40,517 nucleotides of DNA from Bacteroidales bacterium (GTDB taxonomy: Bacteria > Bacteroidota > Bacteroidia > Bacteroidales > Muribaculaceae). This document shows positions 6,318 through 9,200 of the stretch, piece after piece. The DNA lies in the NCBI GenBank assembly GCA_014800515.1, contig JAAVFY010000003.1, forward strand, positions 5,056 through 45,572. Reading direction: 5' to 3'. Numbering within the stretch: position 1 is the first letter of the stretch; each line of letters starts with the position of its first letter. The notes beneath the pieces were generated by a model that was not told where the DNA came from, made no database searches, and saw nothing but the letters and a program-made list of their open reading frames with translations. Both the position numbers and the translations under genes were made by a program.

Positions 6318-6446
6318 AAATGTAAAAACGAATGTTTTGTAAGATCCTATCTAATATAAATGCCGGTAGATAGGAATCGGATAGGTTAGAAGTTAGGCTC
6401 TAAAATATGTTATACAGCATGTTTTAATAGATTTGGCCTATTTTGA

Positions 6447-6478
6447 TTTGGAAGAGTCGGGACGAATATTTAATTTTG
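6447..6478 (+). promoter_or_regulatory. putative Bacteroidetes promoter with no ORF downstream
   Basis: TTTG (6447-6450), 20-nt spacer, TAATTTTG (6471-6478). Confidence 0.5.
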
Positions 6479-6484
6479 CATCAA

Positions 6485-6573
6485 AACCTAAAAACAATCT
6501 TTTTTACCTTAAGATTTTTTACCTGTAGAAACTTATAGAAAAGGGTGCGACCGTTGAGGTTATCACCCTTTTT
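6485..6573 (+). ncRNA. candidate ~90-nt small RNA (promoter to terminator, no ORF)
   Basis: Lies between the promoter-like element 6447-6478 and hairpin AAAAGGGTG...CACCCTTTT with T-run; no start codon in between. Transcript start is inferred. Confidence 0.4.
6539..6573 (+). terminator. intrinsic terminator-like hairpin
   Basis: 9-bp stem AAAAGGGTG (6539-6547) / CACCCTTTT (6564-6572) followed by T's. Confidence 0.6.
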
Positions 6574-6578
6574 CTATA

Positions 6579-6774
6579 TAAGTAGCTAAGAAAAATTAAA
6601 CAATATAATAACTCAGTAGCTTTGAAAGTATCTTAATATGATATATGCGGTTAATTTTGGCCATCTTGACCTTGTCGCTCAGTCGCTTAGCTCGCTAAGC
6701 TGCTTCGCTCCGCGGCCAACCTGACTCAAAATTATCACGCATCTATCATATTATTAATTTTTCTTAGCTACTTA
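6579..6774. repeat. intergenic palindromic repeat, copy A (196 bp, MITE-like)
   Basis: TAAGTAGCTAAGAAAAATTAA at left, perfect inverse TTAATTTTTCTTAGCTACTTA at right; ~95% identical to copy B at 8965..9159. Confidence 0.9.
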
Positions 6775-6786
6775 TCTATTTATTTG

Positions 6787-6825
6787 GACCTTATTCCACA
6801 AAATCATTTTTTATGGAATGAGGTC
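6787..6825 (-). terminator. terminator-like hairpin at the end of the bioD/exonuclease/small-protein unit
   Basis: GACCTTATTCCA...TGGAATGAGGTC near-perfect inverted repeat downstream of stop 6840; weak T-tract. Confidence 0.35.
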
Positions 6826-6839
6826 TTAGCTCGTCAGTG

Positions 6840-7082
6840 TCAAGTCCGATGTTTTATATTCTCTCTTTTGCGTAGAAAGATTACCAGAATCACAAGTACA
6901 AATATTTCACCGGCTGCAATCCCGATGAAGCTCCATATTCTTCCGGCAGCAATCATCTCAACTCCAAATCTCAGAGCCATAATGATGAAATATATCGAGA
7001 GAAGAGTTGGAAGCCATACGTATTTCCTTCTCCAAAAGGGCAGATTTTTCATCTTAATACTAAATGTCATAGCTCCCTTCAT
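6840..7082 (-). CDS. small integral membrane protein (hypothetical)
   Basis: 80 aa with two hydrophobic segments; start overlaps the stop of the upstream CDS by 4 nt, suggesting translational coupling. Confidence 0.6.
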   Translation of the reverse strand: MKGAMTFSIKMKNLPFWRRKYVWLPTLLSIYFIIMALRFGVEMIAAGRIWSFIGIAAGEIFVLVILVIFLRKRENIKHRT

Positions 7083-7960
7083 GGCTGTGTCGGGAGAGAA
7101 GGATTTGAGTTTCCGGGTTCCATATCGTTGGCGGCCTTGGCAGCCGCTTTTTTTGCTCTTAAAGCGGCCTTTCTCCTGATTCTTGCATTTCGGCGCCGAC
7201 GACGTTTGGCCTCAGCCGCCGGACTTTTGTCAAGTATCTCTTTGGGAGCGGGAGGGTTTAGCAATGCCTCTGCTTTTTTTCTCTCTTTTTCCTCCCTACG
7301 TTCCCGCTCTTCACGTTCTGACTCCTGCTCCGGATGCATATACGGAGAGAGTTCGGGGATGAATTTTCCCTGTGTTATCCAATCATATATCTGTATGCAG
7401 GCTATTGCATCGAGAGCCGCATAATTGCGTTGGCTGACAGTAAGCTCGTCAGCCTCCCAATTTGTGAGTCTCTGACCTTTCGAAATACGCTGGCCGAAAA
7501 GTATGCCATAGATTCTGGCAAGTGAATTATCGGCAATACTATATTTCTTTACGAAGGGCTGCAGGTCAATAAAACCCGCCGGGTTAAAACTTCCACATAC
7601 ATTACGGATATTATGAAAGTCATCGTGGATACTGAGGCCTACCTTCAATTTAGACTCATCTTCCAGAAGATCACGCAGCGTATCGGGCACTCCAATGCGG
7701 TTGAGTCGGAATAGATAGCAGCACTTGCGTGTGGAGAGCTGCATAAGAGCCACCTTATTGATGACACCTTTCTTGAAGCTGGGGCGTGTTTCGGTGTCAA
7801 AGCCTATGATATCAGAATCCCGAAGGTCAGTTATAGCGGCCTCAGCATCCTCCACGCGGTCCACCACGACGATATTGCCCAAATAGTTGGCCATGGGAAG
7901 GCGTGAGAGTTGCTCCTTTGTAATTGAGACCGTGATGTGCGGTTGTTTCTCTTTCTCCAT
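7079..7960 (-). CDS. 3'-5' exonuclease domain protein (RNase D-like) with basic C-terminal tail
   Basis: IIGFDTETRPSF, VGLSIHDDFHNIR, YAALDAIACIQIYDWI match DnaQ-like/RNase D exonuclease motifs; C-terminus KRRRRRNARIRRKAALRAKKAAAKAA. Confidence 0.85.
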   Translation of the reverse strand: MEKEKQPHITVSITKEQLSRLPMANYLGNIVVVDRVEDAEAAITDLRDSDIIGFDTETRPSFKKGVINKVALMQLSTRKCCYLFRLNRIGVPDTLRDLLEDESKLKVGLSIHDDFHNIRNVCGSFNPAGFIDLQPFVKKYSIADNSLARIYGILFGQRISKGQRLTNWEADELTVSQRNYAALDAIACIQIYDWITQGKFIPELSPYMHPEQESEREERERREEKERKKAEALLNPPAPKEILDKSPAAEAKRRRRRNARIRRKAALRAKKAAAKAANDMEPGNSNPSLPTQP

Positions 7961-7990
7961 AATTTCTTGAGATTAGAGCTGAAAAACTTC

Positions 7991-8653
7991 CTATAATGAT
8001 TGCGGCATCTCTATAAACATTGCGTCAGGAAATCTCTCCATCGTCCATCGTCTCAGATATTCCCGAGAGTCATCGCTTATAGTCTTATCCTTGTCGAAGT
8101 AGGGATTATATACCACGGCTGCCAGCGCGATACCGGCCTCCCTGATAGCTGAGAGCGTCAGAAGTGTGTCGCTGACTGAACCTAACTGTCCGTTAGTCAC
8201 GACTACTGTCGGCAGCTTCCGGTCAATAATATAATCTATCGTGAGATAGTCATCCTTCAACGGCACCATTATGCCTCCCGCGCCTTCTACAAGAACGAAG
8301 TCATATTCCTTCTGCAACGTTGAGGTGGCTTCATCTACGATATGCAGATCAAGTTCACGTCCGTCAAGACGAGAAGCAAGATCCGGCGAGGCGGGATATG
8401 AGAAGATTATAGGGGCTGTGATGTGAAGGCGATCCACAGTCTGCATAGGAATACCCATCAATCTGCGATGCACTGCGATATCTTCACTGAAATCTTTATT
8501 GCCCGTCTGAATGAATTTTTGGGTTATCACGCGTTTCCCCGTCTCTGATGAGAGTACACGTGCGAGCCATCCTGTGGCATAACTCTTGCCCACGTCTGTG
8601 CCAATTCCGGTGACAAACACCACTTCGGGCCATCTGCTGCTGCAAAGGTTCAT
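7991..8653 (-). CDS. bioD: dethiobiotin synthase
   Basis: FVTGIGTDVGKSYATGWLA P-loop and VEGAGGIMVPL motif. Confidence 0.92.
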   Translation of the reverse strand: MNLCSSRWPEVVFVTGIGTDVGKSYATGWLARVLSSETGKRVITQKFIQTGNKDFSEDIAVHRRLMGIPMQTVDRLHITAPIIFSYPASPDLASRLDGRELDLHIVDEATSTLQKEYDFVLVEGAGGIMVPLKDDYLTIDYIIDRKLPTVVVTNGQLGSVSDTLLTLSAIREAGIALAAVVYNPYFDKDKTISDDSREYLRRWTMERFPDAMFIEMPQSL

Positions 8654-8802
8654 CTCCGCTTTAGAGTAATGTTAATGATAGTTGGAGAGTCTTCCCTCCG
8701 AGGGGGGATTTACTCTCCGTCAGATGATAAAATTTACTGACTTTCCCGGCGGACATCGCGGAGCTACAGCCTGGCGATGGCGGCCATCTGGTTAAGTCGT
8801 TG

Positions 8803-8834
8803 CAAAAATAATAAGAATCCGCGTTTTCGGCAAA
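8803..8834 (-). promoter_or_regulatory. putative promoter of bioD
   Basis: Minus strand TTTG (8834-8831), 20-nt spacer, TATTTTTG (8810-8803). Confidence 0.55.
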
Positions 8835-8887
8835 TCTTTATACGAATTTCATATATGATTCCAATTGAAAGTATTGCTTCGTTTCAC

Positions 8888-8925
8888 TTCAAAACGACTC
8901 ATAGAATTCAAAATGACTCATAAAA
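8888..8925. repeat. tandem 19-bp direct repeat upstream of the bioD promoter
   Basis: TTCAAAACGACTCATAGAA / TTCAAAATGACTCATAAAA, 17 of 19 positions identical. Confidence 0.7.
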
Positions 8926-8964
8926 AGGTGAAGTTATGAAGATCTTAATTACTCAGGTAACTAA

Positions 8965-9159
8965 TAAGTAGCTAAGAAAATTAAACGCTATAATAACTCA
9001 ATAGCTTTGAAAGTATCTTAATATGATATATGCGGCTAATTTTGGCCATCTTGACCTTGTCACTCAGTCGCTTAGCTTGCTAAGCTCCTTCGCTCCGCGG
9101 CCAACCTGACTCAAAATTATCGCGCATCTATCATATTATTAATTGTTCTTAGCTACTTA
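8965..9159. repeat. intergenic palindromic repeat, copy B (195 bp, MITE-like)
   Basis: Same orientation as copy A; TIR TAAGTAGCTAAGAA...TTCTTAGCTACTTA; ~9 substitutions and one 1-nt indel against copy A. Confidence 0.9.
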
Positions 9160-9166
9160 ATAAAAT

Positions 9167-9200
9167 TGAGGGTGTATCAAAAACGTTTGATACACCCTCA
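9167..9200 (-). terminator. intrinsic terminator of glyA
   Basis: TGAGGGTGTATCAAA/TTTGATACACCCTCA 15-bp stem, 4-nt loop, T-rich on the minus-strand side. Confidence 0.75.

Follow-up and report, generated by a model that had tools for sequence, protein, structure and literature searches.

Two repeats beside bioD in a Muribaculaceae genome: support for an IS630-type MITE with a hairpin core shared among element end types

Two gene-less repeats of about 196 bp stand on either side of a small group of genes that includes bioD in a Muribaculaceae genome, and the locus raises the question of what kind of element they are and why their interior is so strongly palindromic. The window used for the analysis is the whole stretch of 40,517 nucleotides at positions 5,056-45,572 of contig JAAVFY010000003.1 (GCA_014800515.1, Muribaculaceae); a window position equals the coordinate on this contig (C3) minus 5055.

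Two repeat copies at the bioD locus

Comparison of the two repeats (Table 1) revealed direct repeats in the same orientation, with 95% identity over 183 ungapped nucleotides plus the left end. Consistent with the first-pass annotation, which had described repeats of about 196 bp with about 95% identity, shared terminal inverted repeats (TIRs), a perfect 21-bp TIR in copy A and no fitting ORF, our analysis reproduced the coordinates, the identity and the perfect TIR, and no ORF was found inside either copy. In copy B one A is missing, so that its perfect TIR is only 14 bp. The TIR pattern occurs four times in the window against 0.17 occurrences expected from shuffles, and these two are the only copies in the window. 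The nested palindromes noted earlier are real and join into one long hairpin (single-stranded DNA fold, z = -7.2). When folded as RNA, the minus strands of the two copies gave z values of -6.1 and -6.5, and the plus strands folded more weakly (z of -3.9 and -2.6). A typical element is mostly 195-198 bp in length, with a TIR of 14-21 bp, and is non-coding, in agreement with the size (50-1000 bp) and TIR of MITEs.

Table 1. Features of the two repeat copies and the genes between them (window positions)
Feature	Position	Strand	Remarks
MITE copy A	6579..6774	- (that of the core hairpin)	Includes both TA (6579-6580 and 6773-6774); element proper 6581-6772
Copy A left TIR, 21 bp	6579..6599	+	TAAGTAGCTAAGAAAAATTAA; resembles IS630 ends
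Copy A right TIR	6754..6774	-	Pairs perfectly with 6579-6599
Copy A core hairpin, 71 nt	6658..6728	-	Model R1, 87.3 bits (G000:C3:11713-11783); fold
80-aa protein of unknown function, conserved in the genus	6840..7082	-	Neighbour, outside the element
3'-5' exonuclease-domain protein	7079..7960	-	Neighbour, outside the element
bioD, dethiobiotin synthase	7991..8653	-	Neighbour, outside the element
MITE copy B	8965..9159	-	Includes TA at 8965-8966 and 9158-9159
Copy B left TIR, 14 bp, perfect	8965..8978	+	
Copy B right TIR	9146..9159	-	
Copy B core hairpin, 71 nt	9043..9113	-	Model R1, 87.1 bits (G000:C3:14098-14168)

Copy A is located between the convergent genes for a phosphoesterase and the 80-aa protein, and copy B between bioD and a serine hydroxymethyltransferase gene. 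The bioD neighbourhood was located in 14 other genomes of the genus, and the core was present in none of them. Gene order around bioD is unchanged in all those congeners whose locus extends far enough for it to be read, and the distance from bioD to the next gene is 5-263 bp, compared with 585 in the window. The congener loci are empty sites; hence, the element neither carries nor defines the bioD unit. The bracketing of the bioD/exonuclease/small-protein unit, to which the first-pass annotation had drawn attention, is thus incidental, since the same gene order exists in relatives without the element, and a composite element carrying bioD was rejected on the same grounds.

Two further features were observed next to the copies. 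A perfect 15-bp inverted repeat adjoins copy B at 9167-9200 and probably terminates transcription of the serine hydroxymethyltransferase gene. A weak Rfam match to the Bacteroides sRNA BTnc060 at 6440-6573 (32.7 bits against a gathering score of 228.9) is probably due to chance.

Copy number, target site and IS630 transposons with matching ends

The genome that contains the window (G000) consists of 1.99 Mb in 75 contigs and is 80.7% complete, and the copy numbers given here are lower bounds. A covariance model of the core matched at least 130 places in this genome, and all 40 full-length candidates that were scored matched copy A with 94-100% identity. The 13-nt end pattern gave 344 matches, against six for a reversed control. 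Sixteen core matches are located no more than 160 bases from a contig start. Sequence context was read from stretches surrounding the copies, and many of these stretches ended a few bases beyond the core, at contig ends. Since many contigs end within a copy, the true copy number is probably higher, and the element probably causes much of the fragmentation of this draft assembly.

Contig breaks inside copies were observed at C4:18-88, C41:2-72, C51:12131-12201 (of 12203) and C70:23269-23339 (of 23339). A second subfamily is represented by L004 (G000:C7:103361-103431), a 199-bp element with ends TAAGTAGCTGGTCAAATTAA that adjoins a copy of the first subfamily. Three short derivatives without the core, L345, L346 and L347 (G000:C7:73290, C11:4521 and C9:8393), have TA at both ends.

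At the target site, 49 of the 54 different full-length copies examined are bordered by TA left and right. Where the direct repeat spanning the insertion could be determined (50 copies), it measured exactly 2 nt in 49, and no longer target duplication was found. One copy (L006) is nested in another: its joined flanks restore the terminal repeat of the other copy without a break. Runs of the 8-mer TAAGTAGC were seen beside copy ends at L006, L007, L017, L028, L029 and L348; such runs would be the expected residue of repeated insertion into the TA within a terminal repeat.

Genes of the IS630 family (DDE_3) were identified in 18 of 101 genomes of the genus, and seven of these genes lie within TA-flanked elements of 1085-1124 bp. 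The two IS630 proteins tested both match PF13358 and the IS630 family transposase model NF033545; in one case the NF033545 score falls slightly short of the cut-off. The ends of the IS630 elements agree with their best MITE matches in the genus at 18-22 of 24 bases, and the right end of one of them (L063), TAAGTAGCTACTAAAAATTAAT, is identical to MITE ends of other species in the genus. The matching ends of these TA-flanked transposons support the conclusion that the two window repeats belong to an IS630-type MITE. The search for a transposase flanked by the same TIR, which the first-pass annotation had proposed, succeeded in part: IS630 transposons with matching ends are present in the genus, but in the window's own genome (80.7% complete) only truncated IS630 remnants were found, and no intact copy with exactly the TIR of the window. 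Because the ends and the TA target are shared, as for the RUP elements of Streptococcus pneumoniae, whose mobilisation by IS630-Spn1 has been proposed (PMC2229807), we infer that such an IS630 transposase probably moves the MITE in trans. The core was absent from the IS630 loci of the genus, and is therefore not part of the IS630 transposon.

Of the two readings offered in the first-pass annotation, the MITE-like one is upheld by the high copy number, the TA duplication, the empty orthologous sites and the matching IS630 ends in the genus. The REP/BIME-like one was set aside, as the unit is about 196 bp long with TIRs and a TA duplication.

A core hairpin shared by elements with different ends

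Elements of 185-199 bp occur across many species of the genus with differing ends and a constant internal plan. Read in the minus-strand orientation of the window, their 71-nt core folds into an extended hairpin interrupted by two tandem G.A/A.G internal loops that hardly vary. Among 24 diverse elements, 93.1% of the cells were paired, compared with 25-38% when the partner was slid by 1-3 columns, and double-sided changes were found in 21 of the 24 core pairs. A second set was collected with two short sequence seeds and with no requirement for pairing, and consisted of 60 representatives below 85% identity. At the 21 pairs outside the seeds, 80% were paired, compared with 33-39% when slid. Counted as sequences, which are not independent events, the double changes amounted to 328 cells, compared with 110 in shuffles, and none of 1000 shuffles reached as high a value.

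In the 54 clean representatives, the two GA/GA internal loops are kept in 96% and 98%, values somewhat favoured by the fact that both loops lie partly inside the seeds (one mismatch allowed in each), and a third loop is kept in 57%. G.T pairs outnumber A.C pairs by 85 to 26, and the GA strand is more stable than its complement in all 54 representatives with RNA parameters and in 53 with DNA parameters; the constraint on the structure is thus strand-specific. A known structured RNA family was rejected: Rfam 15 gave nothing at the core in the window at E-values up to 1, and nothing reached the gathering score at 12 diverse core loci.

The first-pass annotation missed that the nested palindromes make up a conserved core hairpin, which also lies within elements with other ends. 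In other genomes it is flanked by ends other than TAAGTA, namely AGACCCCATCCCAC..., GAG..TGTTTA..., GAAACTGTTTTGAATTT, AAGGT..GTTCTATAAATT and GGGCGGTTCTAATAATTC. The GAG...CTC and GAAACTG elements have identical flanking 3-mers (TAA or TTA) in most testable cases, and core-bearing elements flanked by TAA or TTA include L042, L129, L139, L142, L172, L193, L211 and L220; one GAAG-ended element showed a duplication of ATT. A 3-bp TNA target duplication is the rule in one group of IS5-type transposons. MITEs with different insertion rules have the core in common, and the TA and TNA duplications would imply different transposase groups. Hence, the core appears to be a structured, separable module found in MITEs that rely on different transposases. 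A search for an autonomous partner of the 3-bp-duplicating elements, which was not exhaustive, found none in the loci examined or among the listed TIR matches in four genomes. In the complete genome G228, cores are found with several end types; among those examined, TAAGTA was absent. Two inverted cores of differing sequence, one near each end, were observed in L044, L142, L170, L193, L201, L211 and L238.

Analysis of 297 genomes of the family revealed matches to the core model in 172 (58% of the sampled Muribaculaceae), representing 21 of 30 genera, and the named records of core matches point to Muribaculaceae. Elsewhere in the Bacteroidales the core is sporadic: the model matched 10 of the genomes sampled from the order's other families. 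When 396 genomes from across the phylum were sampled, matches turned up in just two apart from the window's own. The element had no match in phage, plasmid or E. coli records (E. coli by blastn). Two IMG/VR viral contigs carry the exact core pattern (L245, 13025-13052; L246, 11510-11537). Muribaculaceae-type elements with ends TAAGTAAGTCGTAAAAATTAATG were also observed in JAMPHR01, labelled 'Paenibacillus sp. isolate NALB_7961_12' (L157, L158, L162, L178 and L200), which may reflect a wrong label, a mixed bin or a cross-phylum transfer.

Role of the core and relation to known systems

Taken as a whole, an IS630-type MITE with a separable conserved hairpin module shared among end types is the best explanation of these results, with a probability of roughly 0.8. 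In the proposed mechanism, the transposase would come from an IS630 relative whose ends match (TA-AGTA... and then a AAAATTAA-like stretch), and it would excise the element and insert it at TA dinucleotides with duplication of the TA. The ends would be recognised by the matching transposase, the target being TA or TNA according to the type of element. The core would be active as a single strand, either in read-through RNA or as single-stranded DNA at the replication fork, and would bind a cell factor, by which several kinds of MITE may persist or amplify. Both the kind of active strand and the benefit of the core are presumed in this scheme. A further and tentative proposal, to which we would give somewhat less than an even chance, is that the tandem sheared G.A hairpin serves as a helper of many Bacteroidales MITEs, exchanged across transposase families and recruiting a cell factor for spread or tolerance.

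That the core accompanies ends of several kinds makes it improbable as a site for a transposase; contact with a cell factor is more likely. Transposition probably does not strictly require the core, to judge from the rare TA-flanked copies that lack it (L345-L347), although these copies may instead have arisen by later deletions. The copies showed no clear orientation bias relative to genes. In G228, 31 of 49 core matches have the lagging polarity (p = 0.085, not significant), as judged from a sparse skew sample of this genome; some elements contain two inverted cores, so that the matches are not independent. As neither a gene-orientation nor a replication bias is clear, neither the RNA nor the single-stranded DNA role is singled out.

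Among the other explanations, the one that survives best, although we regard it as unlikely, is that the core was inherited from the subterminal region of an ancestral transposon, e.g. as a hairpin blocking read-through into the transposase gene, and simply persisted in deletion derivatives whose ends meanwhile diverged or were swapped. An inverted core near each end, as in L201, L170, L211, L193 and L142, is what subterminal hairpins predict. However, the IS630 loci of the genus lack the core, the two kinds of target duplication point to different transposase groups, and a remnant within an element without genes would be expected to degenerate, not to be preserved through double changes.

In bacteria, template switching is a well-established process at quasi-palindromes. 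Rather improbable, in our judgement, is an ordinary IS630 MITE with a functionless hairpin, in which template switching between the palindrome arms during replication copied arm onto arm and so produced the paired changes. Template switching would perfect the palindromes, yet the GA/GA loops stay in 96-98% while the flanking pairs turn over; the strand-specific constraint and the presence of the same core with unrelated ends also argue against this reading, to set against the facts that long palindromes are a substrate of template switching and that MITE transcripts in general form stable stem-loops (PMC10969869).

A host regulatory element, acting as an mRNA stabiliser, a processing site or a terminator for neighbouring genes, is very unlikely. 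The copies are indeed intergenic (none of 23 own-genome copies tested overlaps a predicted ORF), and transcripts are affected by Correia and ERIC elements (PMC2229807, PMC10969869), but at the positions tested relatives do not share the copies. A role in gene expression is not favoured because the copies have no orientation preference relative to flanking genes and the core showed no terminator signature in a terminator scan. Hairpins were found beside one of 98 insertion sites, against 28 of 384 control TA sites; a terminator role or a preference for terminators was rejected, since the core is not terminator-like and the element flanks are poorer in hairpins than the control sites. The chance of a local segmental duplication of an intergenic stretch, which the first-pass annotation would have favoured had no further copies been found, is negligible, as the two copies are nearby and in the same orientation but clearly belong to a set of 130 or more copies that are scattered over the genome and have unrelated flanks.

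MITEs are usually seen as passive leftovers known only by their ends. In the IS630-type MITE with a hairpin module preferred here, the interior is structurally conserved and strand-specific, in an abundant gut bacterial family, and is also found with unrelated ends. No published description of these sequences was found in the open-access literature searched, which misses most subscription journals; other prokaryotic MITEs have been described. If the core is functional, it offers a handle on why some non-autonomous elements reach more than 100 copies. At a minimum, the elements are useful markers and probably part of the reason why Muribaculaceae draft assemblies break.

Comparison with known systems revealed likenesses to several families of repeats. 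REP/BIME repeats (RAYT; GTAG- or CGTC-tagged) are likewise high-copy hairpin repeats, but they are palindromes of 20-40 bp with a tetranucleotide tag (PMC3733652) and are without the TIR and TA anatomy of the window element. ERIC/IRU elements of enterobacteria are intergenic imperfect palindromes with TA at the ends (PMC2229807); they differ in their length of 127 bp and in their taxon, and the window element had no blastn match in the E. coli genomes searched. MITE464/PgRS and BrickBuilt of Porphyromonas gingivalis are also Bacteroidales MITEs (PMC4596501), although they contain tandem repeats of 41 or 23 nt, whereas the window element has IS630-like ends and TA. The IS5 elements ISPg1 and ISPg4 of Porphyromonas have GAGAC ends, and the GAG...CTC ends of the second group of core-bearing elements are similar to those of ISPg4 (IS5) and MITE464, GAGACTGTTGCA (PMC4596501). 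The Correia/NEMIS elements of Neisseria, compared here by description, share the terminal TA, with TIRs of 24 bp, a long stem-loop transcript and many copies (PMC2229807); RNase III processing is reported there, whereas in the window element conservation lies in an internal core common to several end types. RUP resembles the window element in its size of about 100-200 bp, its approximately 100 copies, its intergenic location, its IS630-like ends and its insertion at TA (PMC2229807). RUP is reported to be without other signatures of structure or function, whereas the window element has a G.A-loop core shared across end types.
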